The notes under the pieces were generated by a model. The model was not told where the DNA came from, made no database searches, and saw only the letters and a program-made list of their open reading frames with translations. A stretch of DNA of 64,000 nucleotides from contig JAFGWU010000039.1 in the NCBI GenBank assembly GCA_016936975.1, positions 21,024 through 85,023 of the forward strand, in the 5' to 3' direction. Shown here piece by piece: positions 19,300-55,187 of this stretch. This stretch comes from Bacteroidales bacterium. Its GTDB lineage: Bacteria; Bacteroidota; Bacteroidia; Bacteroidales; GCA-2748055. Positions within the stretch are counted from its first letter, which is position 1. Every line of letters starts with the position of its first letter. Both the position numbers and the translations under genes were made by a program.

Positions 19300-19323
19300 G
19301 ATTCCTATCTGCAGGCAGGAATC
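19300..19323. terminator. Inverted repeat between convergent genes (candidate bidirectional terminator)
   Basis: GATTCCT-N10-AGGAATC, 7-bp perfect arms, spanning the stop codon of the minus-strand GH127 gene and 16 bp past the SSS stop codon. Confidence 0.4.
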
Positions 19324-21368
19324 CAGACCGTCATTTCAGACTTTCCCCTGTTTCCCCATGCAAAATAGGGGATGAGCCGGATGATTAACGGAACGGGTTG
19401 TCGGTCGGATATTTCCCGGTAGAGTTCATCATCCCAATCGTCCTGATTTATGATTAAGGCCTCACCTTTAAGGCTGATTAATTGAGAACCATCTATTTCA
19501 ATCTTTTCAGGCGAAAGGTGAATATCTGCAGGGATTCCGATATCTGATACCCTGACATTTTGCGGTAAATCAGGGGATTCAAGGCAATAAACTATCGGGC
19601 CGCGCCGGACAGCAAGTTCGTTCCGTGTTTCTTCAACAAGCGGGTTGGATTCAATCAGTTTTGTCTTTACAGGGAGTTCGAGCCTGATTTTATCTCCTTT
19701 TCTCCAATTCTTTTCGATCGTCAGGTAAGTTCCGGGAACGACTGGTGTCTGGCATAACTGTTCATTGACATAAACCTTGCTTCCGTCTGCCCAGGAGGGT
19801 ATGCGCAATTTCAGGATGAGATTGTTGCGCGGGACCTCCTCGAGCGTTAACATAACAGTGCCTTCCCAGGGATAATCGGTTTCCTGGTGCAGTATGACCT
19901 TCGAACCGTCAGGCAGGTGTGTATCGAGATGGCTGGATCCGTACAGGTGGAACCATACAGTTCCCTCAGACAGTGAATAAAGATAATTATGTATTTCGGA
20001 GACCGTTCTTACAACATTGGGCGGGCAGCAATTGCACAGTGAAATATATTCCTCCCTTTCCTTGGACCACCTGAGGGTATAAGGAAGATCAAAATCCACC
20101 CTCAGGGGATTCGTATAAAAGTATCTTTTTCCATCCAGGCTGACTGCTGACAGGACGCTGTTATAAAGTGTCTGTTCGACCATCTCGGCATATTTGGCTT
20201 CTCCTGAAATCATCAGCATTCTCCAGTTCCACAGTACGCTGCCAATGTTGGCACAGGATTCATTATGCGCCGTGATGTTTGGTAACTGGTATGGCCGTCC
20301 ATAGGCCTGGTGCACCTGCTGGATGTAAGGCTGATTATAGGTTGTGCCGTCGGGGGATACCCCATCGTATAATGCCCCGCATCCGCCGGTAATGTATAGC
20401 TTGTGTTTGACGAGGTCGTTCCATATCATTTCAAGGGGCCGCAGAAGCGTTGTGTCACCTGTCTCAGCCACCAGGTCGGCCACACCGGCATACAAATAAT
20501 TTGCCCTGACTGCATGGCCAATGGCCTCTGTCTGTTCCCTGAACGGAATCCGGTCCTGATTGTGATCGGTTCCGTTTCTGACCATACGTCTGATATCTAT
20601 CAGGTTTCGCCCCAGGTCGAGATACTTTTTCTCCCCGGTAACCCGGTACAATTCAATTATCCCCATATAGTGGGAAGGACAGATGGCATTCTGGGCGAGT
20701 TCCTCCGGATCACGGTTGTAAAAATCAATCAGAAAATCTGCTGCTTTCACAGCCACGTTTAACAGGGTTTCCTTACCCGTAGCCCGGTAATGCAAACAGG
20801 CTGCCGTCATTAAATGTCCCATATTATAAGTCTCAAAATCGAGACGCTCCCTGAACTCGGCTTTCAGGTCATTGCCAGATCTTTTTCTCTGTTCGATGAT
20901 GACAGGTGTATGGATATAACCATCTTCTCTTTGTGATCCGGCGATGATCCTGATAATGTCATCCATCTGTTCATCCAGTTCCGGCTTTCGGGTTTGCATG
21001 TAAACTGAAACCAGGGATTCGAACCATTTGTAAAAGTCACCATCGTGAAAAGGAGGTCCGGAGTGATTTCCCTCTGCATGTCCCGCCGCAATCTCAAAGT
21101 TTCTGAATGCATGGCTGACATCCGCATCATTCAGGATGCTCCACATGAAGGGTACCATGGTATCCCTGCAGACGATAAAACGTTCAGCCCAGAATCCTGA
21201 TGTCAGGGCAACATCATTCCCGTTTACCCCCATCATCAGGGCAAATGGACTCCGGGAGTTATCTGCTGGTGCTTTGTCCTGTCCATTCAATAACAACGGA
21301 AAGACCAATAAAATGATTACGAAGGCGGGATTTGCAATGGTTACTGATTCCCTGTTCTTTGGATCCAT
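19305..21368 (-). CDS. GH127-like beta-L-arabinofuranosidase
   Basis: 'LTSGFWAERFIVCRDTMVPFMWSIL', 'HDGDFYKWFESLVSVYMQTRKPELDEQMDDIIRIIAGSQREDGYIHTP' and 'SLCNCCPPNVVRTVSEIHNYLYSLSEGTVWFHLYG' (Cys cluster). Confidence 0.85.
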   Translation of the reverse strand: MDPKNRESVTIANPAFVIILLVFPLLLNGQDKAPADNSRSPFALMMGVNGNDVALTSGFWAERFIVCRDTMVPFMWSILNDADVSHAFRNFEIAAGHAEGNHSGPPFHDGDFYKWFESLVSVYMQTRKPELDEQMDDIIRIIAGSQREDGYIHTPVIIEQRKRSGNDLKAEFRERLDFETYNMGHLMTAACLHYRATGKETLLNVAVKAADFLIDFYNRDPEELAQNAICPSHYMGIIELYRVTGEKKYLDLGRNLIDIRRMVRNGTDHNQDRIPFREQTEAIGHAVRANYLYAGVADLVAETGDTTLLRPLEMIWNDLVKHKLYITGGCGALYDGVSPDGTTYNQPYIQQVHQAYGRPYQLPNITAHNESCANIGSVLWNWRMLMISGEAKYAEMVEQTLYNSVLSAVSLDGKRYFYTNPLRVDFDLPYTLRWSKEREEYISLCNCCPPNVVRTVSEIHNYLYSLSEGTVWFHLYGSSHLDTHLPDGSKVILHQETDYPWEGTVMLTLEEVPRNNLILKLRIPSWADGSKVYVNEQLCQTPVVPGTYLTIEKNWRKGDKIRLELPVKTKLIESNPLVEETRNELAVRRGPIVYCLESPDLPQNVRVSDIGIPADIHLSPEKIEIDGSQLISLKGEALIINQDDWDDELYREISDRQPVPLIIRLIPYFAWGNRGKSEMTVWIPACR

Positions 21369-21382
21369 ATTTACGATGGTTG

Positions 21383-24190
21383 TTAATTAATATCAATACT
21401 GCTGTTGAACCGGTAATGGCCCGAACCCGCAATTACTTTTAAATATTCTCCGGTGTATTCAAGCACGGTTATATTTTCTGAATTCCTGAGTTCAGCGTCC
21501 GATTCCCTGACACTGCCGGGTTCAGCGGCCGGAATAAAAATTGTTGCTGTGGTATTTACAGGCACAGAGACGTTAAGATGAAGCGTGGTTCCTTTGACCT
21601 CCCATTTCGAGGAGAGGGTTCCGTAAGGTGTTTGATGGCTCCCGGATGCATAGGAGAGCCGTTCGGTTAAAACGGGTTTGATCACAGACTTTTTATAACC
21701 GGGGACCTCTTTTTCTCTCTGAATTCCTGCAATATTTTCATACATCCACTGTCCAATGGCCCCGTAGGCATAATGGTTAAAGGAATTCATCCCGGCATCC
21801 TGGAACGTGCTGTCCGGTTTAATTCCATCCCACCGCTCCCATATTGTGGTTGCCCCCATGGTAACAGGGTAGAGCCAGGAGGGGTACCTTTTATTGAAAA
21901 GTAAATTGTAAGCCAGATCCTGATAACCCGTATTCGAAAGCACATGACAGATTAACGGGGTTCCCAGGAATCCGGTGGTGATATGTCCGAAGTGTTCAAC
22001 ATCTGCCGCGAGCCTTTCTGCTGCAATGGTTTTGAACTCCTCCGGAACCAGGTCAAAACCAAGTGCCAGGGAGTAGGCGGCCTGTGTACCGGATACCAGC
22101 CTTCCTGTTTCGGTAAAAAATTCCCGGGCAAAGGCAGATTTGATTTTTGGAAGAATAGCTTTATAATGTTCAGCATCCTCATTGTGTCCAAGGATTTCAG
22201 CTATTTTTTGCAGGATCCCCGTTGAGTGGTAAAAATAGGCTGTTGCGATCAGATCTTTATCTGTATTGGCACCGGCATAGCCGTAATCCGGTGCATTGTA
22301 ATGGTAACTCATATATTCTGCAAATGCCAGCCAGTCGCCGAAGTGAAATCCATAGTCGAAGATATACCGCTCGCCTGCATGCCCGACCATATAATCAACC
22401 CAGGCTTTCATGGAATGGTATTGATCCCTGAGGATATTTTCATCGCCGTATATGAGATACATGTTCCATGGGATAAGAATGGCCGCATCGGACCATCCGG
22501 TGGCTCCGTAACCGTCGGACCAGCCTGTTCCGCCTCCGCCATCAACAATCATCGGGACCACCCATGGAACTGAACCATCCTCTTTTTGATCTGCCTCAAG
22601 ATCCTTCAACCATTTCCTGAAAAACGGAACTGTATTCATGTTGAAGGAAGCTGTAGGTGTAAATACCTGCGCATCGCCTGTCCATCCCATACGCTCATCA
22701 CGCTGTGGGCAGTCGGTGGGAATATCCAGGAAATTACCTCTCAGTCCCCATACAATGTTTTCCTGCAATTGATTGATAAGTGAATCAGAGCATTCGAATG
22801 TTCCAACCGGCTCCATATCGGAATGTATTACAATCCCCTGCAGGTCATCGCACGAAACCCGACCCGGATAACCTGAGATCCTTACATACCTGAACCCCTG
22901 GAAGGTAAAATGCGGTTCAAAATGTTCCACGCCTTCGCCTTTGAAGATATAGCGTACCTCCTGGTCTGCCTCACGGAGATTCTCCAAGTAAAAATTTCCC
23001 TCCTTATCAAGAACTTCTGCATGATGGAGCACGATCTCCGTTCCGGCCTCTCCCTTCAAAGCGAATTTTATCCATCCGACCATATTCTGTCCCATATCAA
23101 ATACCAGCTCCCCTGAGGGGGTGATTATCTGTTTCACCGGCTTGATGGTATCTGTGGCCCGGACGGGGACACTGACGGAGGGGACGAGATTAGAGAAACC
23201 GTGGTCTTTTTCAATGCAGTCAAACCATTTAAGATCCCTGTATCCCGGTTGATCCCAGCCGGTCAATTCAAGCCTGGCATCATATACCTCTCCGTCATAT
23301 ATTTCAGATTTCAATATGGGTCCGGAAGCGGATCGCCAGGATTTATCCGAGCAAATAACCTCATGTGATCCATCCTGGAAGGTGATTACCAGTTGCAGGA
23401 GCAATGCAGTTTTTTTACCATAGTGTTCTTTCTCCATTGTCCAGGCGAATGGTCCCCTGAACCAGCCGTCACCCAGTATGGCACCAATGGCATTATCGCC
23501 TTTATTGACGAGTTTAGTGACATTGTACACCTGGTATTGCAGTCTTTTATGATAACTTGTCCAGCCGGGGGTAAAGAGCTGGTCACTGACTTTTTTTCCA
23601 TTAAGGTGGACATGGTAAAGTCCATGAGCCGTCACATATAATTGCGCATTCCGGATTTTCTTCCCTGCATGAAATTCTTTCCTCAGGTATGCGGCTTTAT
23701 TGGGTTTGTTTTCCGCTTCCTCAACCCCCGGTTCAATCCATTCAGCTATCCAATCTTCATCATTCAGAAGTCCCATCTCCCAGAATGCCGGTTGGCTCCA
23801 TTCAGACCGGTTCCCCCTGTTGTCCTCAATTCTCACCTGCCAGTATATACGCTGGCCGCTTTTCAACGGTATCCCATCATAAGGAATGTTAATGGATTGT
23901 CCGGACATTACAATTCCTGATTTCCAGGTATGAGGGCCATCTTTGAGGGCTTCCTCCGTCAGTGCCGCTTTTATTTCATACGCTTTCTGAATTACACTGC
24001 GTTCTGAGGAGACAATCTGCCAGCTCAGGGCAGGTCTTATATTTTCAATTCCGACAGGATTGATCCTGTATTCACAGGTCAGGTTATGCACAGCCGGTCC
24101 GATACTTCCGGACTGGGCCTGAACAGAAATCATTAATGAAACAGCAATGGTAAGGAGTGCGATGCAATGGATGAGCTGTTGATTTTTCAT
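21383..24190 (-). CDS. GH78-like alpha-L-rhamnosidase (copy 1)
   Basis: 'LTCEYRINPVGIENIRPALSWQI', 'LGDGWFRGPFAW', 'IPTDCPQRDERMGWTGDAQVFTPTASFNMN' and 'TTIWERWDGIKPDSTFQDAGMNSFNHYAYGAIGQWMYENIAGI'. Start moved to the ATG at 24190. Confidence 0.95.
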   Translation of the reverse strand: MKNQQLIHCIALLTIAVSLMISVQAQSGSIGPAVHNLTCEYRINPVGIENIRPALSWQIVSSERSVIQKAYEIKAALTEEALKDGPHTWKSGIVMSGQSINIPYDGIPLKSGQRIYWQVRIEDNRGNRSEWSQPAFWEMGLLNDEDWIAEWIEPGVEEAENKPNKAAYLRKEFHAGKKIRNAQLYVTAHGLYHVHLNGKKVSDQLFTPGWTSYHKRLQYQVYNVTKLVNKGDNAIGAILGDGWFRGPFAWTMEKEHYGKKTALLLQLVITFQDGSHEVICSDKSWRSASGPILKSEIYDGEVYDARLELTGWDQPGYRDLKWFDCIEKDHGFSNLVPSVSVPVRATDTIKPVKQIITPSGELVFDMGQNMVGWIKFALKGEAGTEIVLHHAEVLDKEGNFYLENLREADQEVRYIFKGEGVEHFEPHFTFQGFRYVRISGYPGRVSCDDLQGIVIHSDMEPVGTFECSDSLINQLQENIVWGLRGNFLDIPTDCPQRDERMGWTGDAQVFTPTASFNMNTVPFFRKWLKDLEADQKEDGSVPWVVPMIVDGGGGTGWSDGYGATGWSDAAILIPWNMYLIYGDENILRDQYHSMKAWVDYMVGHAGERYIFDYGFHFGDWLAFAEYMSYHYNAPDYGYAGANTDKDLIATAYFYHSTGILQKIAEILGHNEDAEHYKAILPKIKSAFAREFFTETGRLVSGTQAAYSLALGFDLVPEEFKTIAAERLAADVEHFGHITTGFLGTPLICHVLSNTGYQDLAYNLLFNKRYPSWLYPVTMGATTIWERWDGIKPDSTFQDAGMNSFNHYAYGAIGQWMYENIAGIQREKEVPGYKKSVIKPVLTERLSYASGSHQTPYGTLSSKWEVKGTTLHLNVSVPVNTTATIFIPAAEPGSVRESDAELRNSENITVLEYTGEYLKVIAGSGHYRFNSSIDIN

Positions 24191-24230
24191 TGGTTTGTTT
24201 TTCAACGATTATAACGATTGAACGGTTCAT

Positions 24231-24344
24231 TTGCAAATCTAGCCCATTAAATTTATTTTTGCAATAAAACGTTTGCATACAGGAGATTTTGCTATTATTC
24301 TAAGATACACTATTTAAGTATTTTATAGACTGTAAACGTTAACA
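24231..24344. promoter_or_regulatory. Divergent regulatory region A: two LacI-type operators 67 bp apart plus a minus-strand Bacteroidota promoter
   Basis: AAACGTTT core centred at 24270/24271 and TGTAAACGTTAACA at 24331-24344. Minus-strand TTGC-N19-TAGATTTG. Ungapped 114-bp match to region B. Confidence 0.75.
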
Positions 24345-24366: not shown

Positions 24367-25029
24367 ATGAAAACTGTTGTTGCGATTCATACTGCCATGG
24401 CGATGGTTGAGCCGACAAAAGAATTATTTCAAAAGCATCTGCCCGGTGTAAGGCTGATAAATATTGTGGATGACAGTCTGATACAGGATGTGATCAGGGA
24501 TGGGGAAGTAAAGGCATCGGTTGAGAGCAGGATCCGGCTTTATTACCGGGCTGCTGTGGATGCGGGTGCTGATGTGATATTCAATACCTGTTCCTCGGTT
24601 GGAGAGGTGGCTATCGCTGCGAGAAAAACCCTCCCGGTTCCCCTGGTTAAAATTGATGATGCAATGGCCCGCAAAGCTGTTAAGGAGTATAAAAAGATCG
24701 GTGTAATGGCTACCCTTTCCACAACGCTGAATCCCACCATCAAGCTGATCTCTCGTTTCGCCAGGGAGATGTCTGCTGATGTTACCGTTACAGAAGGACT
24801 TGTTGATGGCGCTTTTCAGTCATTGATGGATGGGAACCTGGATGATCACGATCAGAAGGTCCTTAACAAAGCTCAGGAAATATCTTCGCAGGTGGATGTG
24901 ATTTTGCTTGCCCAGGGTTCCATGGCCAGGGTGGAGAATACCATCATTGCCAGGACCGGTAAGCCGGTCCTTACAAGTCCTTTACTGGGTGTTCTGGAGG
25001 TGAAATCCACACTTGAGCAATTAAATTAA
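24367..25029 (+). CDS. Asp/Glu/hydantoin racemase-like protein
   Basis: 'DVIFNTCSSVGEVA' and 'KKIGVMATLSTTLNPT' are Asp/Glu racemase superfamily-like. The second expected Cys position reads 'LLAQGSMAR'. Confidence 0.7.
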   Translation: MKTVVAIHTAMAMVEPTKELFQKHLPGVRLINIVDDSLIQDVIRDGEVKASVESRIRLYYRAAVDAGADVIFNTCSSVGEVAIAARKTLPVPLVKIDDAMARKAVKEYKKIGVMATLSTTLNPTIKLISRFAREMSADVTVTEGLVDGAFQSLMDGNLDDHDQKVLNKAQEISSQVDVILLAQGSMARVENTIIARTGKPVLTSPLLGVLEVKSTLEQLN

Positions 25030-25035
25030 TCTGTT

Positions 25036-26274
25036 TTGAAAAAGAGAAATATTGTTCTGATCCTGTTGATGATTGTAGGAGTCATCACCTTTCTCGACAG
25101 GATTAACATCAGTGTTGCCGGTGCCAGTATCATGGAGGATCTTGGTTTGTCGGGCAAGCAATGGGGATGGATTCTGAGTGCATTTATCCTGTCTTACGGT
25201 TTACTGCAGGTCCCACTCGGTGCCTGGGGAGATCGGGCCGGACAGCGCAAGGTACTTTCGTTCATAGTACTCTGGTGGTCCCTCTTTACCATCCTTACAG
25301 GATTTGCCAATGGATTCATCATGCTGATTATTGTCCGGTTTTTATTTGGAATCGGTGAAGCCGGGGCCTACCCGAACATGACCGGTACGGTAGGCAGGTG
25401 GTTTCCCGGGAAAGAGACTGCCAAAGCACAGGGCTTTCTCTGGGCGGCCAGCCGAATCGGTGGTGCACTGACCCCGTTGATTGTGATCCCTGTCATTATA
25501 AACCTGGGGTGGCGGATGGCATTCTATATTCTCGGGGCATTGGGATTTATCTGGGTTATTGTCTGGTTCGCGTGGTTCAGGGATTTTCCTGCACAGAAAA
25601 AGGGTATCTCCCGGCAAGAACTTGACGAGATAGGGAATAGTGAGGTTAGAGCAGAAAAAATAAAGATTCCCTGGAAATCCATTTTACGAAAGAACCAGTT
25701 CTGGATTTTGCTGGGGATGTATTTTTTCTATGCATGGGGGAGCTGGTTTTTCTTTTCATGGTTCCCTGTATTTATGGAAGAGGGCAGGGGATTTGCCAAA
25801 AGTGAGCTCACCTATGCCGTGGCCGTTCCTTTTCTGTTCAGTGTGATCGGTAACATCTCAGGGGGATATATAAGCGACAGGCTTTCCCTGAAATACGGAG
25901 TAAGAATCGGCAGGAAGGCAGTTGGAGTGTCGGCCCTGATAATTTCTTCCATATTGATGTTTCTTGCGGGATTCATCCCCGGGAAGATACAGGTATTTAT
26001 CTTTCTTTCCCTCTGTTTCGGAATCTTTGACCTGATGCTTCCGGCGGCATGGGCCATCTGCCTGGATATCGGAAAGAAATTCGGAGGCGCTGTATCGGGT
26101 GCCATGAATACGGCAGGAAATATCGGGGGATTCCTGTGCGCGTTAATGTTCGGGTACCTGGTTGATCTAACGGGAAATTATAATTTTCCGCTCTATGTGA
26201 TTGCCTTTATGCTCTTAATAAGTGCCATCCTGTTCTCGTTTATCGATCCGACACGGAAACTGGTGGAAGATTGA
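25036..26274 (+). CDS. MFS transporter (anion:cation symporter / hexuronate-type)
   Basis: 'VITFLDRINISVAGASIMEDLGLSGKQWGWILSAFILSYGLLQVPLGAWGDRAGQRKVL', 'FLFGIGEAGAYPNMTGTVGRWFP'. TTG start. Confidence 0.9.
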   Translation: MKKRNIVLILLMIVGVITFLDRINISVAGASIMEDLGLSGKQWGWILSAFILSYGLLQVPLGAWGDRAGQRKVLSFIVLWWSLFTILTGFANGFIMLIIVRFLFGIGEAGAYPNMTGTVGRWFPGKETAKAQGFLWAASRIGGALTPLIVIPVIINLGWRMAFYILGALGFIWVIVWFAWFRDFPAQKKGISRQELDEIGNSEVRAEKIKIPWKSILRKNQFWILLGMYFFYAWGSWFFFSWFPVFMEEGRGFAKSELTYAVAVPFLFSVIGNISGGYISDRLSLKYGVRIGRKAVGVSALIISSILMFLAGFIPGKIQVFIFLSLCFGIFDLMLPAAWAICLDIGKKFGGAVSGAMNTAGNIGGFLCALMFGYLVDLTGNYNFPLYVIAFMLLISAILFSFIDPTRKLVED

Positions 26275-26287
26275 TTTTCGGAATTAT

Positions 26288-27697
26288 CTAAACAAGCTTT
26301 TTAAACAATTCTGAGAGAGAACCGGTCCCTCCCACATTGCCGGGAAATATGATAAAGGGTATTTTGCGGCCTTTTTCTTCATATCTTATTTTTAATACCG
26401 GAACGCCGGGCAGGATCTGCCCTGAAACGGTCGAAGAAGTTACATTCAGTCCGTCCACAAGAATATCGTGTGAAGTGATTCCTCCTTTCGATACAATATA
26501 GGAAGGAGAGATCGGGAGCTGTTTTATGACGGATGCAAGGAAACCGGATATTTTCCGTCCGCTATGAACGGCCGCATCCATGTTTTCTGACCGGAGTTCT
26601 TTCCTGGTAGTGTAAAGGGCAGGTGTTTTGTCCCTGTTGAACGCATGTACCAGGGCATTCATGGTTTGTTTGAAACAGGTTTCCTCATCCTGCAATATTT
26701 GCATCACATCGATTTCAATTCCTTCAACCTCCGAGTTTTCAAGCAATTCATTCAATTGACGGGTGGTCCTGGGAACATGCGAGCCGATCACAAAAATCCC
26801 TTTTGAACCGCCTGTCCCGAGTTCCTGTCCGGTAAGCAAATCTTTGTCGGGGATACCGCTCAGCGCTTTTGGCAGGGAGGAGGAAGTTCTCATAATGATT
26901 GCCCGGTCGGCCGGGCCCATCATTTCGGTTAATGCAAAACTGAACCTGTGGAGATCAGGGTATTCAACTGCATTAATAATAAGGAACCTGCGGCCGGAAA
27001 GGGATGTAATTTTTTCTTGTAGTTCCGGGGATTCAAGTTTCCTCAACTCTTCCAGGGAAATAGATCCAATCTTTTTTCTGCTCAATGTCCCGGCCGATTT
27101 TTCTATTATATAATCTGTCAGGTTGGAGTTTTTGTAACCAAAAAGCGTGTCGCGTGCAAATTCACTCCGGGCGACCGGAAGGAGATTGTCTCCCTCGACC
27201 ATGTATTGAATATTCCCTGCAGTGATTCTTCCCGCCTCAAGAAGGGCAGGTACAAAGAAAACCGGAAGTTCAACCTCAATATTATGCTCGTGAAGTTTTT
27301 CCAGGATGGCGTCTGTTTCAAGGGGAAAGTGTCCCCTGAGAGTGGAATCGCTCCTGCTGATTATGATAAGTTTATAATGGCAGGACTCATTAGCCCGAAT
27401 GAGCGATTCAACAATCTCGAGGTTAAGTTTCCGGGCAATCTCGGGACTCCGGGATCTTGAGTTTGAGAGTATGTACAGAAGGTGGGAATTGCCCTGCAGG
27501 GCTTTCTTAACAAGGGTGACACTCCATTTTGTCAGCAGCGTGCATCCATGGACGGTCTGGATACCCGTCGGATCATCGTCAATGACGAAAATTTTTGCTC
27601 TTTTCTTTTCAAGGTTTTCCGAAATACGATACCTGATATTGCCCGTCTGAACGGAGGGAACCTTTTTGATGATATCGGAAAGATATTGATAAATCAC
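26288..27697 (-). CDS. Four-carbon acid sugar kinase family protein (DUF1537, OtnK/DtnK/OiaK-like)
   Basis: 'IFVIDDDPTGIQTVHGCTLLTKW', 'SRSDSTLRGHFPLETDAI', 'VSKGGITSHDIL' and 'IFPGNVGGTGSLSELF' are DUF1537 hallmarks. Confidence 0.9.
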   Translation of the reverse strand: MIYQYLSDIIKKVPSVQTGNIRYRISENLEKKRAKIFVIDDDPTGIQTVHGCTLLTKWSVTLVKKALQGNSHLLYILSNSRSRSPEIARKLNLEIVESLIRANESCHYKLIIISRSDSTLRGHFPLETDAILEKLHEHNIEVELPVFFVPALLEAGRITAGNIQYMVEGDNLLPVARSEFARDTLFGYKNSNLTDYIIEKSAGTLSRKKIGSISLEELRKLESPELQEKITSLSGRRFLIINAVEYPDLHRFSFALTEMMGPADRAIIMRTSSSLPKALSGIPDKDLLTGQELGTGGSKGIFVIGSHVPRTTRQLNELLENSEVEGIEIDVMQILQDEETCFKQTMNALVHAFNRDKTPALYTTRKELRSENMDAAVHSGRKISGFLASVIKQLPISPSYIVSKGGITSHDILVDGLNVTSSTVSGQILPGVPVLKIRYEEKGRKIPFIIFPGNVGGTGSLSELFKKLV

Positions 27698-27718
27698 AAT
27701 CAGTTAATTAAATAATAT

Positions 27719-30469
27719 TCAATCTGTTTTGATGATCTTGCCTGTAACCGTTGAATAATTAAATAATACCCGGTAGAAATAAATGCCCGGATCAAGCGAT
27801 TCGGGAACCCAGGGCATGGTGTGACTGCCTGCCGGCATCTGTCCGCTGTAAAGATTTTCGACCAAACGACCGTCGACATTGAAGACCTGAATATCCAGAT
27901 TTCCGTTTTGAGGAAGATCAACCTGTAGTCTCATATGATCCCTGAACGGATTTGGATAGACGTTTACACTGAACTGGCCGCTGGTTGCTGATCCCGGTCT
28001 TTCTGTTGTTGCGAAATCCATATCGAATTCAGCCATGGTAAGAGCAGACCAGGTATTGTTACTGAATGCCCTGGCTTTAATCACTGTATTTTTATCAATA
28101 TAGACAGGATTGGAATAGAGCGTGGCAAATTCAGAGGTTCCTCCACCGATTTGTCTAGGGTCGTTGTCATCGGCAGCATAGTAAATATCTCCTGTTTCTG
28201 CAAATATTTCCAGATTTAACGGTTCTGATATCTCCCCGCCATAATGACTGAAGGTTGGTGCATCGATATCGGGGTAGAGTCCTTCATTCCTGAACTGCTG
28301 AAAAACGATATCCGAACGGTCGGGAAAATAATCCGATAAAAGGGCATTTTTTGCTACCAGCCAGTGGTCGTTTCTGGTATAAAGTTCTGCCACCTCATCC
28401 CGCGGTTGCACATCCCTCCGATAATCCCCCCACCTTGCACTTTCCGTAATAACAGCCATGTCCAGTTCATTTGCCAGTTCATTGAAACGATCAGCCGTGA
28501 CTGTGGCAGTCATTGCGCCTCCATCGAAGAAATGAGCCCTGAGGTGATCGGCAAAGCGCAGCCTGAACTCCTCATTTTGTTTCAGTTCTTTATATATGGT
28601 TGTGGGTTCACCCTGTATGTCATCAACCATGTTTACACTTTTATCCGTCAGGGAATTTTCCGCATCCCAGCTGAAAAATCTGAAACCAGCATCGTTCCTG
28701 ACCCTGTTTCTGGCTGCCAGCCAATTATTGTGATCCCAGTCGTTGTTACCTATATAAACATTTAAAATGATGTAATTTATCAGGTTATCCACGTCCAGCA
28801 GGTTTGAATACCCTGCATTCAGGGTTCCATCGGCATTTCTTCCCTGGATCCTGAAATATGCAGTATTGTCGGACAGGCCGCCACCCACCTGTGCCATTAA
28901 TTGATTCCAGGCTATCTGGTTTCCGTCCACCACATCATTATGGTCCTTCACCATATCATAATCCTCTTCCTTTCCGCCCCAATAAGATTCAGTAAAATCG
29001 TTATTCACTTTTTCCGTTACGCAATATACGCCCCAGTAAAGGCTATTCAGATACAGATGCACAAATTTGTTATGAGGAGAGAGATCTCCCATATCAAGCT
29101 GACTGTTTTTGGCGAATGGATCCTGGAGAAATGTAGTATTGATGCGCTGACTGACATTGTTATGCATCCACGAATAATTATATCCTGACCTCAGGATTAA
29201 CGTGTTAAAGTCATTGGTTGCATCACGATCGTCTGTAAAAAAATTATAGTTCAGCCTGGTTGGCCCGAATTCGCTTCTGAAGACTAGCCTGAAGGAGTGT
29301 TTCTGGCTGTTTTCAGGCACTCTGCTGTTTCCACCGTGGAGTTTGATCCCGCAGTTTATTTGAAAATCCGAATGGTTTTCCGGATCAAGATATTCCAGGG
29401 ATATTTGTCGTTCCCAGTCAATCCCCAGGGCACCGGCCCCTGAACTTCCGGTATAGATATAAATCCCGCCGCTTTCGGGGTCATCACTGTGTGAGAAAAT
29501 ATTCCCCGGATCGGTTACGACGGATAATGTTGGTATCGATGTAAGGGCTGTTTCCATCAGGAGAGCATAACCAGGGTCATTACAAACCTCCGGGTCCATT
29601 TCGTAGTCGGAGGGTGCATTGCCATCTGAAAATTTTAAGGGGCTCCATTCCTGCGGGTATCCTTCCGGATCATCGGGTTGTTGAAGAATATCTTCTATAA
29701 ACAGATAGGTATGGGTAATTACATCGCTGTACTGGCCGCTGTTAGTTACCGCAACTGCACTTAAGGGAGTTGTGGTTCCGATCTGGATGGGAGTGCTGTA
29801 TAAAGTACCGTTCAAACTGTTGGGGCGGCTGCCGTCAGTCGTATAATAGATAGCCAGATTTGCATCTGCCACTGAAAGCTGAACTTCAAAAGGCCCTTCA
29901 TAAAATCCCCTGCCTTTGCTGAAAACAGGAGTAAATACCTGGTTCCCGAGGGTGTTTTCACTTCCGGGTGTTGGTGTCTCCATAAAAGTGTGCTGGGAGG
30001 ATATTATTCCGTAAGAAACATCCTGTCTCTGGACCGGAAAGGTTGGCCCGTAGGAGTATGAGATTGTCCTGCCGTCAGGCTCTGTTAAAGCCAGGTATTC
30101 TCCCGAACCGGATAGTTTAAAGCTGGTGTGCAGGTTATTTGACGGATTGATCCTGTTTTTACCCGAGGCATAAATTACAAGGTATTCCCCTGCAACAATG
30201 GTAATATCCGGAAAGGTCCATTTATTCAGATTACCGGCATTATCGGTCAGATACCACCCCGTTAAATTAATATCGGATGATCCGGGATTATGGATTTCAA
30301 GCCAATCCGGGTAATCTCCGTCCTCATCCTGGAGTGTGGAACCGTTTATGGCCATGAACTCACTGATAAGTAATTTATGAGTGTCCGCAGCATAGAGGAG
30401 GTTTGAAATTGTCACTCCTGTTATTATTGTTAATATTCCCAGGTAATTTCTTTTAGTTTTCTTAAACAT
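27719..30469 (-). CDS. Lamin-tail domain plus CotH-kinase-like domain, chitobiase/FN3-like segments and T9SS sorting domain
   Basis: 'LLISEFMAINGSTLQDEDGDYPDWLEIHNPGSSDINLTGWYLTDNAGNLNKWTFP' (lamin tail). 'LHGGNSRVPENSQKHSFRLVFRSEFG...YLNSLYWGVYCVTEKV' (CotH). 'VYPNPFRDHMRLQVDLPQ' (T9SS). Start moved to the ATG at 30469. Confidence 0.85.
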   Translation of the reverse strand: MFKKTKRNYLGILTIITGVTISNLLYAADTHKLLISEFMAINGSTLQDEDGDYPDWLEIHNPGSSDINLTGWYLTDNAGNLNKWTFPDITIVAGEYLVIYASGKNRINPSNNLHTSFKLSGSGEYLALTEPDGRTISYSYGPTFPVQRQDVSYGIISSQHTFMETPTPGSENTLGNQVFTPVFSKGRGFYEGPFEVQLSVADANLAIYYTTDGSRPNSLNGTLYSTPIQIGTTTPLSAVAVTNSGQYSDVITHTYLFIEDILQQPDDPEGYPQEWSPLKFSDGNAPSDYEMDPEVCNDPGYALLMETALTSIPTLSVVTDPGNIFSHSDDPESGGIYIYTGSSGAGALGIDWERQISLEYLDPENHSDFQINCGIKLHGGNSRVPENSQKHSFRLVFRSEFGPTRLNYNFFTDDRDATNDFNTLILRSGYNYSWMHNNVSQRINTTFLQDPFAKNSQLDMGDLSPHNKFVHLYLNSLYWGVYCVTEKVNNDFTESYWGGKEEDYDMVKDHNDVVDGNQIAWNQLMAQVGGGLSDNTAYFRIQGRNADGTLNAGYSNLLDVDNLINYIILNVYIGNNDWDHNNWLAARNRVRNDAGFRFFSWDAENSLTDKSVNMVDDIQGEPTTIYKELKQNEEFRLRFADHLRAHFFDGGAMTATVTADRFNELANELDMAVITESARWGDYRRDVQPRDEVAELYTRNDHWLVAKNALLSDYFPDRSDIVFQQFRNEGLYPDIDAPTFSHYGGEISEPLNLEIFAETGDIYYAADDNDPRQIGGGTSEFATLYSNPVYIDKNTVIKARAFSNNTWSALTMAEFDMDFATTERPGSATSGQFSVNVYPNPFRDHMRLQVDLPQNGNLDIQVFNVDGRLVENLYSGQMPAGSHTMPWVPESLDPGIYFYRVLFNYSTVTGKIIKTD

Positions 30470-30498
30470 GCCAAATAATAAATAGAAAAGAAATGAAT

Positions 30499-31320
30499 TC
30501 AACTTCCCAGCAATTCCCTGTATTCTGAAGGGGTCATGATATCACCTCCCATTGAAATTACCAGGTTGGCGATCTCTTCAACCAGGATGGAATTGTGTTC
30601 GGCGATTTTTCCCTGTCTGTAATAAAATGAATCTTCAAAGCCCACTCTCAAAACGGTTGTTCCCATGGCAATGGCTCCGGCCAGAAATGAGAAATCCACC
30701 ATTCCGTCATGGGTTAATCCCCAGTGTGCTCCAGTCTCAACAAGTGAAGAAATAAAAGTAAGGTTTCTCATATCTGCCTTCAATGCTCCTTTGATTCCAA
30801 AGCAGAAGTTAAAATGGAGCGGGCGCTCCAGAACCCCTTCGTTTGCGAGTTGAATGCTGGTTTCCACCATGCTCACATCAAAACACTCCAGTTCAGGCAC
30901 TACTAAGGTTTCCTTCATTCTTTTTGCCCAGTAACGTATATCCGGAAGGGTATTGATATATACCTCCTCTCCGAAGTTAATGGACCCCATATTCAATGAT
31001 GCTACTTCAACCCGGGGATCGGTCAGACAAACAGAACGTTCTTCAAGAGAGAGTTCCGCCAGCCCTCCTGTGGATCCCTGGATGACGATATCGGAACCGG
31101 CAGTGATCAGATCGAGTGTCCGGCTGAATTCCTTCATTTCGGAAGTTTGGCGGCCCTTTTCATCCCTTACATGAAGATGGACCATGCCGGCTCCTTTTTC
31201 TGCGCAGGCGATGACCTCCTCAGCTATTTCTTCAGGTTTCAGGGGGTTATTACAGCGATTCGGTACCGGTTTCCCGAAATGGCTTACCGGAGCCACAGTG
31301 ATCAGTACTTTTTTATTCAT
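30499..31320 (-). CDS. BKACE family (beta-keto acid cleavage enzyme, DUF849)
   Basis: 'LITVAPVSHFGKPVPNRCNNPLKPEEIAEEVIACAEKGAGMVHLHVRDEKGRQTSE' is the BKACE signature with the HLH metal site. Confidence 0.9.
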   Translation of the reverse strand: MNKKVLITVAPVSHFGKPVPNRCNNPLKPEEIAEEVIACAEKGAGMVHLHVRDEKGRQTSEMKEFSRTLDLITAGSDIVIQGSTGGLAELSLEERSVCLTDPRVEVASLNMGSINFGEEVYINTLPDIRYWAKRMKETLVVPELECFDVSMVETSIQLANEGVLERPLHFNFCFGIKGALKADMRNLTFISSLVETGAHWGLTHDGMVDFSFLAGAIAMGTTVLRVGFEDSFYYRQGKIAEHNSILVEEIANLVISMGGDIMTPSEYRELLGS

Positions 31321-31363: not shown

Positions 31364-31477
31364 TTGCAAATCTATTGGTTTAAAATTATTTTTGCAATAA
31401 AACGTTTGCATTTATTGCACGAAGATGCAATTTTAAGATATTGGAAATGAGATTATAATTAAATGTAAACGTTAACA
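31364..31477. promoter_or_regulatory. Divergent regulatory region B: two LacI-type operators 67 bp apart plus a minus-strand Bacteroidota promoter
   Basis: AAACGTTT core centred at 31403/31404 and TGTAAACGTTAACA at 31464-31477. Minus-strand TTGC-N19-TAGATTTG. Ungapped 114-bp match to region A. Confidence 0.75.
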
Positions 31478-31524: not shown

Positions 31525-34257
31525 ATGAAAAAAACCGGAATCATTTCTTTTTTTCTGCTTTTGATTATTCTGCTGGCAGGTTGCGGCAAACCAAAAAATG
31601 TCATTATCATATCAGGTAATGATGATCCGAAAACCCGCTTTGGAGTGGAATGGCTTTCCGCCAGGTTAGCTGAAGCAGGCTTCTCGGTAGAGGTTCGTAA
31701 TACCCCGGCCGACACTGTTCATCATTCAATCATTATCGGATTGAAAAAAGATGCTCTGGTAGACGAATTTCTCAGGACAGAAACCCTCGATTCGGTTCTG
31801 CTATGCGATAATCAGGAGGGATATACGCTGATTTCGGGAAGGTCCCGGACCATAATAGCGGGGAATGATCCTTCAGGAACACTCTATGGATGCATCGAGC
31901 TTGCAAACAGAATAAAGGAAAACGGAATAATTCCTGAGATAACATTTTCGGATTATCCCGGAATGGTTTTACGTGGTGCGTGTGTCGGTCTGCAAAAAAC
32001 AGAATACCTTCCGGGCAGGGGTGTTTATGAATATCCTTATACGCCTGAGAACTTCCCATGGTTCTATGATCAGGAATTATGGATACGCTACCTGGACATG
32101 CTTGTGGAGAACAGGTTCAATGCATTGTTCCTCTGGAACGGTCATCCGTTCGCATCATTGGTGCGTCTGGAAGATTATCCTTATGCTGTTGAAGTGGACA
32201 GCGTCTCTTTCAGAAAGAATCAGGAAATCTTCAGGTTTCTGACTCTTGAGGCCGAAAAACGTGGTATCTGGGTTATACAGATGTTCTATAATATAATTGT
32301 ATCAAAACCCTTTGCTGAGAAACACCAGATTAGAACCCAGGATCGATCCCGTCCAATTACGCCCTTGATATCCGATTATACCCGAAAATCTGTTGCGTCA
32401 TTCATTGAAAATTATCCGAACGTTGGTTTAATGGTTTGCCTTGGGGAGGCAATGAATACTTATGAGGACGATGTTGAGTGGTTTACCGGAACCATTATTC
32501 CGGGGATCAGGGACGGATTGGAATCAATCGGCAGTGATGTTGAACCCCCTCTGATCCTGAGAGGCCATGATACCGATGCAAAAATGGTTATGGAAGCTGC
32601 TTTGCCCCTCTATCATAATCTTTATACCGTCTACAAATACAACGGAGAGTCCCTGACAACCTACACTCCAAGGAATTCGTGGGCCGATATTCCTATGGCG
32701 CTCAGTGAACTCGGTTCCGTTCATATTTCAAACGTTCATATTCTGGCCAACCTTGAACCGTTCCGGTATGGATCTCCGGATTTTATCCAGAAAAGTACCA
32801 TTGCAATGCATGAAATACAGGGAGCAAACGGATTGCATCTCTATCCTCAGACCTCATACTGGGACTGGCCCTATTCTGCAGATAAAGTGGACGGGCGTTT
32901 GCTTCAGATTGAGCGGGACTGGGTATGGTACAAAGCGTGGGGCAGATATGCATGGAACAGTTACCTCGAGCGGGAGAAGGAAGCAGATTACTGGAGCAAG
33001 CAGTTTGAAAGTTATTATGGATGCAGGGGATATGGCAGGGAGATTCTCAAAGCCTATGAGGAAACTGGTGAAATTGCGCCGAAGCTTTTAAGAAGATTTG
33101 GTATTTCCGATGGGAACAGGCAGACTCTGATGCTGGGGATGTTTATGAGTCAGCTCGTTAATCCTTATAAGTACACAGTTTATGAAAGTTTCCTGAATTC
33201 AAACGGACCAGAGGGTGAGATTCTTATTGATTATGCCAGGAAGGAGTTTCATAACGAACCGCATAACGGTGAAACGCCGCCACAGATAATACAAGAGGTA
33301 ATGGATCATGCCGCTTCTGCCATTGAAGCCATTGAAAAAGCAGCTCCTCATGTTACCAACAATATCGAAGAGTTCGAAAGGCTCAGGAATGATATATTCT
33401 GCTACAGGGATATAGCCGGTTTTTACGCGGACAGGGTTAAAGCAGCCATGTTGATTTTGAGATACAGGTACTCCAGGGATCCGGAGGATCTCAAATCCGC
33501 TTTGCCGTTTATAGAGGCAAGTTTGCAGACATTCAAAGACCTTTCAGATAGAACCGAAGGCACTTATTTGTACGCGAACAGCATGCAGACTGCCCAGAGA
33601 AGGATCCCCATTTCCGGAAGAGATGGGAAAAATAAGACATGGAGCGAGTTGCTGGTTCATTATGAAGAGGAGATGGAAATATTTAACAGGAATGTTCAGA
33701 TGTTATCCGGTGAACCGGATTCTCAAGCAACCCGGAATTATGAAACCCTTATTCCTGCGCGGATAAAAGTTTTGGAGCCTGAACCGGAATGGTTCAAATA
33801 TGAAATGGGACAACAGGTATATTCCGACCGGAATTTCAGGATAGAAGCGTTTGCTCCTGAGTTGTTGAATCTGGAGGGTCTGAAACTTTCAATGGAGAGG
33901 CAGGTGAAAGAGGGCACCAGGATAAGGTTCAGAAATGAAGAACCGGTGAAGGTGCTGGTCGGTTATTTTAACGGGCACAGCTACTCCATCCTGTCACCCC
34001 CAACACTTGAAACCAATGCTAATGCGAATGATCGCGGACAGGCGGATATAAAAATAGCGAATGGATTGCATATTCCCGGGCTTTATCCTGTAAACATTTA
34101 CACGTATCTGTTTGAACCGGGGGAGAATATCCTGGAGCTGGGTGCCGGCAGGGTGATGGTACTGGGTTTTATGGATGGAAACCAACAGATCAGGGTTCGT
34201 GATGCTGGAATTGGAAGTGAAGAGGAGGAATTGCCCATCGATTGGTTATTCTATTAG
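31525..34257 (+). CDS. Alpha-glucuronidase-like lipoprotein (GH67-related fold, atypical)
   Basis: Lipobox LAGC. N-terminal 'SARLAEAGFSVEV...IIAGNDPSGTLYGCIELANRI' resembles GH67/GH20 N-terminal domains. TIM-barrel 'DMLVENRFNALFLWNGHPFASLV'. Confidence 0.65.
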   Translation: MKKTGIISFFLLLIILLAGCGKPKNVIIISGNDDPKTRFGVEWLSARLAEAGFSVEVRNTPADTVHHSIIIGLKKDALVDEFLRTETLDSVLLCDNQEGYTLISGRSRTIIAGNDPSGTLYGCIELANRIKENGIIPEITFSDYPGMVLRGACVGLQKTEYLPGRGVYEYPYTPENFPWFYDQELWIRYLDMLVENRFNALFLWNGHPFASLVRLEDYPYAVEVDSVSFRKNQEIFRFLTLEAEKRGIWVIQMFYNIIVSKPFAEKHQIRTQDRSRPITPLISDYTRKSVASFIENYPNVGLMVCLGEAMNTYEDDVEWFTGTIIPGIRDGLESIGSDVEPPLILRGHDTDAKMVMEAALPLYHNLYTVYKYNGESLTTYTPRNSWADIPMALSELGSVHISNVHILANLEPFRYGSPDFIQKSTIAMHEIQGANGLHLYPQTSYWDWPYSADKVDGRLLQIERDWVWYKAWGRYAWNSYLEREKEADYWSKQFESYYGCRGYGREILKAYEETGEIAPKLLRRFGISDGNRQTLMLGMFMSQLVNPYKYTVYESFLNSNGPEGEILIDYARKEFHNEPHNGETPPQIIQEVMDHAASAIEAIEKAAPHVTNNIEEFERLRNDIFCYRDIAGFYADRVKAAMLILRYRYSRDPEDLKSALPFIEASLQTFKDLSDRTEGTYLYANSMQTAQRRIPISGRDGKNKTWSELLVHYEEEMEIFNRNVQMLSGEPDSQATRNYETLIPARIKVLEPEPEWFKYEMGQQVYSDRNFRIEAFAPELLNLEGLKLSMERQVKEGTRIRFRNEEPVKVLVGYFNGHSYSILSPPTLETNANANDRGQADIKIANGLHIPGLYPVNIYTYLFEPGENILELGAGRVMVLGFMDGNQQIRVRDAGIGSEEEELPIDWLFY

Positions 34258-52295: not shown

Positions 52296-55187
52296 ATGAT
52301 GAAAAGCAAAGTTGAAGTTACAATGTTCAGGACAATCCTGACTTATCTTTTCATAACAGCAATCCTGGAAATCCCCGCTGTCGCCCAAACTTCATTCATT
52401 GAACCGGAAACCGATATAATTTACCTGTCTGGAACGGGATCGGATAACCCCGTGGAATGGAATTTCTATTGCTCTTCCGGGATGAAAAGCGGTTCCTGGA
52501 CGAAAATAAATGTGCCCTCATGCTGGGAACAACAGGGTTTCGGCACCTATAACTACGGTGTCTATTTTTACGGGAAAGCGACCGATCCGGCCATCCCCGA
52601 CGAATACGGATTGTACAGGTATGAGTTTGAAGTTCCTGCTGACTGGAAAAACAGGAACAACCGTATAGTATTCGAAGGATCGATGACCGACACCGAAGTA
52701 AGAATAAACGGAAAATCCGCAGGACCGGTCCACCAGGGTGGCTTTTACAGGTTTTCATACGACATAACGGACCTCCTGGAATATTCCGGGTCCAACCTCC
52801 TTGAGGTTACGGTCAGGAAAGAATCGGAGAATGCCAGCGTAAACCTGGCTGAACGGAGGGCGGATTACTGGAATTTCGGGGGGATCTTCAGGCCGGTGTT
52901 TATCGAATCAAGACCTGAGGTCAATATCCTGCGGGTAGCTGTGGATGGAAAGGCAGACGGCACGTTTTCCGCTGATGTTTTTCTGGGGCGCCCGGCCGGG
53001 AAGCGAATGAACCTGGAACTGCTGATTACTGACCATGAAGGAAAAAGGGTCGGAGATATCGTATTAAAAAAAATTAAAGCAGGGGAAGAAATAATTACCC
53101 TTTCAAATAGTTGCAGGGGCATTAATCATTGGACAGCCGAAACACCTTTTCTCTATACAGCTTCATTCAAATTATCCAGGGGGGAAACAGTGCTTCACCG
53201 GGTTACAACCCGTTTTGGGTTTCGGACGATGGAGATCAGGGAGGGCGATGGAATCTACCTTAATGGACAGAGGATTCTCCTTAAGGGAGTGAACCGGCAC
53301 AGCTTCAGGCCTGAAAGCGGAAGAACATTAAGTCCCGCCCAGAACAGGGAGGATGTTTTGCTCATAAAGGAGATGAACATGAATACTGTCAGAATGTCGC
53401 ATTATCCTCCTGATCCGGAATTTTTGGATGCCTGTGATGAACTGGGACTGTATGTGCTGAATGAACTGGGAGGATGGCATGGAAAATATAATACGGAAAT
53501 CGGTAAAAAGCTTGTTAAGGAACTGGTAACCCGCGATGTGAACCATCCGAGCGTGATTTTCTGGGATAATGGAAATGAAGGAGGTTGGAACACGGAACTC
53601 GACAGTGAATTTTCGAAATGGGATCCCCAGAACCGGCCGGTGCTTCATCCCCAGCAGGAACTGAATGGCGTGGAAACCATGCATTACCGTTCATACGGGG
53701 AAACCCAGGAGTATTTAAGGGGAAAAGAGATCTTTTTTCCGACCGAGATCCTGCATGGATTGTATGACGGCGGATTGGGTGCCGGTTTATATGATTACTG
53801 GGAGTTCATGAGAAACCATCCCCGTTGTGCGGGAGGACTTCTCTGGGTATTTGCCGATGAAGGAATAATCCGTACGGACCTGGATGGAAAGATTGATTGC
53901 GATGGCAATCATGGGGCGGATGGAATCGTCGGACCCCACCATGAAAGGGAAGGGAGCTTTTATACCATAAAAGAAGTCTGGTCCCCGGTGCAGGTATTAA
54001 TGGAGGAACTACCTGAAGAATTTAACGGGATCATTCCGGTGGAAAACCGTTATGATTTCATCAACCTGAACCGCTGCACATTTAAATGGACTCTAGGAAA
54101 ATTTTATGGGCCGTCGGAAGAGAAGAATGGCTATTCTGTGCTGGATTCCGGAACAGCCCTGTCACCGGAACTTCCGCCTCATCTGTCAGGGGAACTGGTT
54201 CTTAACCTTCCATTAAACTGGCAGGATGCCGACGTACTGTATCTTACTGCTTATGATCCCGGGGGACAGGAACTGTGGACCTGGTCATGGCTTACCGGGG
54301 ATCCGGATCCCGGCCAAATATTGAATGATGGTGATTACGATGGAATGAACTTTTATAAAGACAATGGCAGGTTGATCGTTGCTGCCGACAGTCTGAAGCT
54401 GATCTTTAATCTTTCTGACGGATTCCTGGAGGAAGCACAACAGGGACCAAACCGGATGTCATTTGGAAATGGTCCGCGTTTCATTGCTTTCAGAAGGGGC
54501 GACAGGACGCTTGATGGAACCATTAAGGCAAATGTTCCCAAAGGCGTCGACAGGATTTATTATGATGTTGCAGGGGCGAGCAACTTAACCGGCCTGGAGG
54601 CAAAGAATAATGGCAATACCATAGTTGTTAAAGCAGACTATTCCGGTCCTTTAACAAAGGCAGTCTGGACCATTGGATCCAACGGTCTCGTGAGATTGGA
54701 CTATACCTACCGGTACGACGGGGCTGTTGATCTTATGGGAATAACCTTTGACACCCCGGAAGAGAAGGTGCAGTCGTTACGATGGTTGGGAGAAGGACCT
54801 TACAGGGTATGGGCCAACCGTTTGCATGGCACAATCATGAATGTCTGGGAAAACCAATATAATGATCCTGTTCCGGGAGAATCATTTGAATATCCTGAGT
54901 TCAAGGGATTTTTCGGAAAATGGAAATGGGCTGAACTGTACACTGAAGAGGGCTCTGTTTTCATCTCCGGCGAACAGTTCAATAATTACCTTGGGATCTA
55001 TACCCCCCGTGATGGAAGGGACTCCTTGCTTTATACATTTCCTGAAGCCGGAATTTCTGTGCTGGATGTCATACCGCCTGTCAGGAATAAAGTGAATGCG
55101 ACCGATCTGATTGGTCCTTCCTCAAGGGTAAGATTTGTGGAGGGTATCAGAAATGGGACCCTCTATTTCAGGTTTAAACCGGAATGA
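52296..55187 (+). CDS. GH2 glycosidase (divergent)
   Basis: Signal peptide. 'LKGVNRHSFRPESGRTLSPAQNREDVLLIKEMNMNTVRMSHYPPDPEFLDACDELGLYVLNELGGWH' and 'HPSVIFWDNGNEGGWN'. Confidence 0.85.
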   Translation: MMKSKVEVTMFRTILTYLFITAILEIPAVAQTSFIEPETDIIYLSGTGSDNPVEWNFYCSSGMKSGSWTKINVPSCWEQQGFGTYNYGVYFYGKATDPAIPDEYGLYRYEFEVPADWKNRNNRIVFEGSMTDTEVRINGKSAGPVHQGGFYRFSYDITDLLEYSGSNLLEVTVRKESENASVNLAERRADYWNFGGIFRPVFIESRPEVNILRVAVDGKADGTFSADVFLGRPAGKRMNLELLITDHEGKRVGDIVLKKIKAGEEIITLSNSCRGINHWTAETPFLYTASFKLSRGETVLHRVTTRFGFRTMEIREGDGIYLNGQRILLKGVNRHSFRPESGRTLSPAQNREDVLLIKEMNMNTVRMSHYPPDPEFLDACDELGLYVLNELGGWHGKYNTEIGKKLVKELVTRDVNHPSVIFWDNGNEGGWNTELDSEFSKWDPQNRPVLHPQQELNGVETMHYRSYGETQEYLRGKEIFFPTEILHGLYDGGLGAGLYDYWEFMRNHPRCAGGLLWVFADEGIIRTDLDGKIDCDGNHGADGIVGPHHEREGSFYTIKEVWSPVQVLMEELPEEFNGIIPVENRYDFINLNRCTFKWTLGKFYGPSEEKNGYSVLDSGTALSPELPPHLSGELVLNLPLNWQDADVLYLTAYDPGGQELWTWSWLTGDPDPGQILNDGDYDGMNFYKDNGRLIVAADSLKLIFNLSDGFLEEAQQGPNRMSFGNGPRFIAFRRGDRTLDGTIKANVPKGVDRIYYDVAGASNLTGLEAKNNGNTIVVKADYSGPLTKAVWTIGSNGLVRLDYTYRYDGAVDLMGITFDTPEEKVQSLRWLGEGPYRVWANRLHGTIMNVWENQYNDPVPGESFEYPEFKGFFGKWKWAELYTEEGSVFISGEQFNNYLGIYTPRDGRDSLLYTFPEAGISVLDVIPPVRNKVNATDLIGPSSRVRFVEGIRNGTLYFRFKPE

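Follow-up and report, generated by a model that had tools for sequence, protein, structure and literature searches.

The window, by which we mean the whole stretch of DNA analysed, is 64,000 nucleotides long, corresponds to G000:C73:21024-85023 (G000 being the genome under study) and reaches the end of its contig. It holds two control regions, A (24231-24344) and B (31364-31477), which are about 7 kb apart, with the following genes and operons around them:

19305-24205, minus strand: reverse operon of A, GH78 (21383-24205) and GH127 (19305-21368)
24367-26274, plus strand: forward operon of A, Asp/Glu racemase-family protein and MFS transporter
26288-31320, minus strand: reverse operon of B, BKACE, CotH/LTD protein and DUF1537-type kinase
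31525-34257, plus strand: first gene of the forward operon of B, GH138-type alpha-D-galacturonidase

The gene to the right of B had been described as alpha-glucuronidase-like in an earlier note on this DNA, but profile and PDB matches make it a GH138-type enzyme instead: it scores 1416 bits against NF049878 (cut-off 1300) and matches 6HZE/6HZF (BPa0997, a member of GH138). Together with apiosidase, BT_1020-like, GH127, GH106, GH78 and GH141 enzymes and SusC/D proteins in the surroundings of A and B, it points to the plant pectin rhamnogalacturonan-II (RG-II) as the most likely target of the regulon. The same note had treated everything between A and B as one regulon, a reasonable reading that is too narrow, as operons also run outward from the two regions. 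A published account describes BT0997 as an RG-II alpha-galacturonidase and BT1012 as an RG-II beta-apiosidase (PMC7939467). The full set of enzymes named above, with SusC/D, is shared with the RG-II loci of Bacteroides thetaiotaomicron, from which the present locus differs in that a LacI-family regulator appears to be in control. Polysaccharide loci of Bacteroides are usually controlled by hybrid two-component systems or by ECF sigma/anti-sigma pairs. An operator-like palindrome, TGTAAACATTTACA, is also present within the GH138 gene (34089-34102), about 260 bp before the next ORF.

Anatomy of the two control regions

The core of both regions, TTG-CAAATCTA-N12-TATTTTTG-CAA, is a palindrome of 34 bp sited between divergent genes. 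The primary promoter of Bacteroidetes has TTTG near -33 and TAnnTTTG at -7 (PMC7366714), and a promoter of this type can be read on both strands of the symmetric core (TTG-N20-TAnnTTTG), with a gap of 20 nt in each direction. The two promoters interlock: on each strand the -33 TTG abuts the -7 box of the other strand. The elements of the two regions are:

24231-24264, both strands: promoter core of A (forward -33 TTG 24231-24233 and -7 24254-24261; reverse -7 24241-24234 and -33 24264-24262)
24264-24277, no strand: operator 1 of A, ATAAAACGTTTGCA, over the predicted forward start, CG at 24270
24301-24307, no strand: TAAGATA of A, near the midpoint between the operators
24331-24344, no strand: operator 2 of A, TGTAAACGTTAACA, CG at 24337, centre 67 bp from operator 1
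31364-31397, both strands: promoter core of B (forward -33 31364-31366 and -7 31387-31394; reverse -7 31374-31367 and -33 31397-31395)
31397-31410, no strand: operator 1 of B, ATAAAACGTTTGCA, predicted LacI-type
31434-31440, no strand: TAAGATA of B, a sequence block in common with A
31464-31477, no strand: operator 2 of B, TGTAAACGTTAACA, centre 67 bp from operator 1

In Flavobacterium johnsoniae the -7 box lies 4-5 nt from the start (PMC6847099), a rule that would place the starts of A at about 24266 (+) and 24229 (-); those of B would be near 31399 (+) and 31362 (-). The predicted operator 1 of A would then extend over the forward start and the reverse promoter's upstream edge, with the predicted operator 2 in the forward leader, at about nt 72 of the transcript predicted for the forward strand.

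Pairwise alignment of A and B gives 79 of 114 identical positions without a gap, exactly as counted by hand in the earlier note, and identity drops to background directly outside both ends. The identical blocks are TTGCAAATCTA (11 bp), TTATTTTTGCAATAAAACGTTTGCAT (26 bp), TAAGATA (7 bp) and TGTAAACGTTAACA (14 bp). Outside them 21 of 56 positions agree (shuffled mean 17.1, P=0.14), so that the two regions are detectably alike in their elements only, and the concentration of identity claimed in that note holds. Its labels needed some correction: the block that it called operator 1 does contain the operator, yet TATTTTTG inside it is the forward -7 box, and what it read as a single -7 box, TTGCAAATCTA, combines the TTG of the forward -33 element with the reverse -7 box TAGATTTG. 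With a P of 0.009, the shared TAAGATA stands out modestly. Within the window the 20-mer TTGCAATAAAACGTTTGCAT, with up to three mismatches, occurs in A and B only (0.01 expected). Pattern searches, from which all whole-genome site counts derive, with an 18-mer from the same sequence at up to three mismatches found, besides A and B, no site with fewer than three mismatches in the 3.48-Mb genome.

Operator pairs in the genome and in its relatives

Two further pairs with a spacing of 67 bp were returned by a gapped search of the genome, at C73:6533 and C23:26867-26943. The former, TGTAAACGATAACA, is on the same contig as A and B, immediately downstream of a LacI-family gene (5481-6476), and separates this gene from an Fe-ADH/DHDPS/PdxA/DUF1537-kinase/SSF operon with SusC/D behind it; the latter precedes another SusC/D pair. 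All four pairs of the genome are spaced by exactly 67 bp in a search that allowed 52-82 bp, and the reversed control gave none; an operator-like site at C19:160297 was set aside, as it resembled coding DNA. At each of the four the forward -7 T stands 16 nt before the C of operator 1, with a TTG 19-20 nt upstream. The combination of TAnnTTTG with a TTG about 20 nt upstream is found on both strands in A and B and on the forward strand at the C73 and C23 pairs and in G394, and among the four genome pairs only A and B have the reverse promoter. The spacers of the four are unrelated. Operator 2 is separated from the start codon by 22 nt in A, 47 nt in B, 77 nt at C73 and about 144 nt at C23, and overall the separation ranges from 2 to about 160 nt. 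Because this distance varies, gene position offers no explanation for the spacing, and the constraint is one of operator to operator and not of operator to gene.

The operon beside the LacI-family gene (L020:6691-12577, on C73 to the left of the window) encodes an Fe-ADH, a DHDPS-type aldolase, PdxA, a DUF1537 kinase and an SSF protein and is largely conserved in G033 and G090. Such a set would suit a pathway that degrades Dha, a sugar acid of RG-II, through aldolase cleavage, reduction, phosphorylation and oxidative decarboxylation. A lone operator-like sequence, TGAAAACGTTATCA, lies at L020:5322-5335 between a GH106-like gene (minus strand) and the LacI gene (plus strand) and could possibly serve autoregulation.

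Similar pairs are found in relatives that have an orthologue of the LacI-family gene, with spacings of 67 (G033), 67 (G394), 68 and 69 (both G090) and 69 bp (G308), and in G033, G090 and G394 a pair is situated at the regulator's own promoter. A strict scan for pairs across the order (395 genomes) detected the spacing of 67 in G000 and G394 only; six other matches, with spacings of 53-83, are scattered and look like chance. A pair at 67 on C61 of G026 was likewise treated as chance, having no -7 box and degenerate repeats, and a pair at 60 on C609 of G308 was left out of the counts for its different layout. The composite module of reverse -7 box and extended operator 1, searched for in the same 395 genomes, is confined to four of them, G000 (two copies), G090 (two), G308 and G409, with none in the reversed control, and three of these four have the regulator. 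No regulator orthologue was found in G409, where the module, at the edge of its contig, neighbours a GH2 gene whose product is 52% identical to that of window gene 52296-55187. A B-type module lies directly upstream of the GH138 orthologues of G090 (57%) and G308 (60%), which belong to two other families; B is old, since the same module precedes the same gene there. The forward -7 box of the G308 orthologue of B is degenerate. The spacing of B differs by 2 bp across families (67 versus 69); spacing seems to track the genome rather than the locus, in what is a small sample.

These comparisons bear on two expectations of the earlier note. Variable spacing in orthologous loci, which the note had named as contrary evidence, is seen only weakly, with 69 in place of 67. 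TAAGATA is not kept as such in the relatives. Instead, the spacers of the operator pairs have an AT-rich, TTTAAA-like stretch, some 27-33 positions beyond the C of operator 1, more often than shuffled sequence does (P about 3e-4 to 2e-3); base composition may be behind part of this enrichment. A stretch of this kind near the operator midpoint could be a flexible loop apex or a site for an architectural protein.

As to how A and B came to be alike, the alternatives had been put as duplication of a promoter without its genes or constraint on the spacing. Recent duplication of A and B is not supported, because their spacers have no detectable homology and because B is shared with two other families. 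Constraint is supported by the spacing of 67 at two pairs with unrelated spacers and of 67-69 in relatives. A duplication far in the past, or a composite module that was used again and again, may still lie behind the likeness, because the modules of A, B, G090 (both), G308 and G409 have more in common than the operators alone would require. A and B might then both descend from one promoter through the old duplication or re-use of a small cassette without its neighbouring genes, and their offsets would be inherited and not selected. The 26-bp block, the reverse promoter and TAAGATA (with its P of 0.009), common to A and B and absent from the other two 67-bp promoters, fit this explanation, as do the two G090 modules, which are more alike mutually than either is to A or B. 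The shuffle-like identity of the A and B spacers, the orthology of B across families and the same spacing at C73:6533 and C23, which are unrelated to A and B outside the elements, argue against it, and we regard inheritance of the offsets as somewhat unlikely. Found again to within two bases at unrelated promoters of this and related bacteria, the 67-bp distance probably reflects the way in which one repressor switches an RG-II gene set and not a recent copying of DNA.

The candidate regulator and the proposed mechanism

The LacI-family gene at C73:5481-6476, about 14.5 kb to the left of the first base of the window, encodes a protein of 331 aa (P0001) with an N-terminal LacI helix-turn-helix and a periplasmic-binding-like core (PF00356, PF13377 and PF00532). 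Operators with a central CG are found in its neighbourhood, in the TGTAAACGATAACA pair, and three orthologues have such pairs at their promoters. The recognition helix of P0001, IATVSRV, is similar to the one in CcpA (1RZR), which among PDB entries with DNA is the best match to the protein. Many LacI-family proteins share operators of the TGTAAACG type, and the helix and the CcpA match fit such operators. According to domain and structure matches P0001 ends with its core domain and has no LacI-type tetramerisation helix; therefore, a loop would need a dimer-dimer contact like that of GalR. Four orthologues (72, 67, 66 and 56% identity) were found in the 395 genomes of the order. Searches of its own family returned nothing above 37% identity, a scan of GTDB contigs, which may omit near records, returned nothing above 40%, and 396 genomes of the class yielded no new orthologue.

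We consider it likely that A and B are members of a set of stereotyped RG-II control regions with a candidate LacI-family repressor at both operators. According to the proposed mechanism, polymerases of the two directions would share the DNA of the 34-bp palindromic core, which carries a -33/-7 promoter on each strand. P0001, most likely the repressor, would bind operator 1, which overlaps the predicted forward start and the reverse promoter's upstream edge, and operator 2, 67 bp away in the forward leader. The fixed 67-69 bp would reflect two repressor dimers in contact across a short DNA loop, or another form of cooperative binding, and both operons would be freed together by an inducer that arises when RG-II is degraded. 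The comparison shows the sequence elements with their exact offsets, their return at unrelated promoters, the orthology of module B and a distribution mainly among genomes with the regulator; the binding protein, its repressing action, the loop and the inducer are what we infer from it, and looping is our favoured reason for the constraint on spacing. Against the mechanism, a distance of 67-69 bp is a non-integral number of turns at 10.5 bp per turn, though about six turns at the 11.1-11.6 fitted in vivo (PMC1762422). The missing tetramerisation helix of P0001, the degenerate forward -7 box of the B orthologue in G308 and the module of G409, a genome in which no regulator was found, also count against it.

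Looping by LacI of Escherichia coli has been measured in vivo over 57.5-155.5 bp (PMC1762422), so the paired operators described here, like those of lac, have a short spacing within the range of measured looping; they differ in that LacI is a tetramer, whereas the candidate has no tetramerisation helix, and in that one spacing is re-used at several promoters. In the gal operon of E. coli, GalR closes a loop between OE and OI, 113 bp apart, by a dimer-dimer contact, and repression depends on helical phase (PMC4693257). With gal the present system would share two operators at a fixed spacing and, judging from the predicted protein, a dimeric LacI-family repressor; unlike in gal, the spacing is 67-69 bp, both operators are at or downstream of the predicted forward start and the promoter is two-way. 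We suggest, tentatively and with less than even confidence, that a dimeric repressor without a tetramerisation helix may form a natural, fixed loop of 67-69 bp beside a palindromic two-way promoter and thereby shut two divergent operons, the spacing being set by the regulator of each genome and kept at otherwise unrelated promoters.

The two operators might also act independently, operator 1 blocking initiation and operator 2 serving as a roadblock in the leader, with dimers that make no contact. The position of operator 2, some 72 nt into the predicted forward transcript, and the missing tetramerisation helix of P0001 would both suit such an arrangement. A roadblock needs no fixed distance, yet the spacing is 67 in 4/4 genome pairs and 67-69 elsewhere while operator 2 stands anywhere from 2 to about 160 nt from the start codon, and we judge independent action to be unlikely. 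That another LacI-family protein of the genome (on C21, C7 or C66) binds the pairs appears more improbable still: TGTAAACG-type operators are widespread in the family and the C7 protein is 36% identical to P0001, but no pair lies near the C21, C7 or C66 genes, pairs are at the promoters of P0001 orthologues, and the same-family genomes with a distant homologue only (G011, G016 and G022) had no pair.

Predicted interlocked two-way promoters in the order

Searched for in 355 genomes of the order, the pattern TTGCAAANNTA-N{1,28}-TANNTTTGCAA was matched 146 times, in 81 genomes; reversed controls gave 5 matches. Among the 76 matches listed, N11-13 accounts for 38, where a uniform distribution would give about 8, and N22-25 for 18, where it would give about 11. 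The N22-25 group is about one helical turn longer than the N11-13 group. Of 17 N11-13 loci fetched, 14 lie between divergent ORFs and none within an ORF. Given this position and the excess of N11-13, interlocked two-way promoters appear to be common in this order, with A and B as regulated examples; we found no published description of them in Bacteroidota in the literature, our coverage of which is incomplete. Bidirectional promoters of E. coli have a pseudo-symmetric core, to which RNA polymerase can bind in one orientation or the other (PMC12825309), as predicted for the cores of A and B. They differ in having starts 10, 18 or 23 bp apart, while in A and B the -33 and -7 elements interlock over 34 bp and the predicted starts are about 37 bp apart.

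The system of A and B would be best filed as LacI-family dual-operator control of a two-way promoter. It names a candidate regulator and an operator code for an RG-II regulon, and it provides a natural series of promoters that keep one operator spacing but have different spacers and downstream genes, which makes the role of the spacing directly testable in Bacteroidota.
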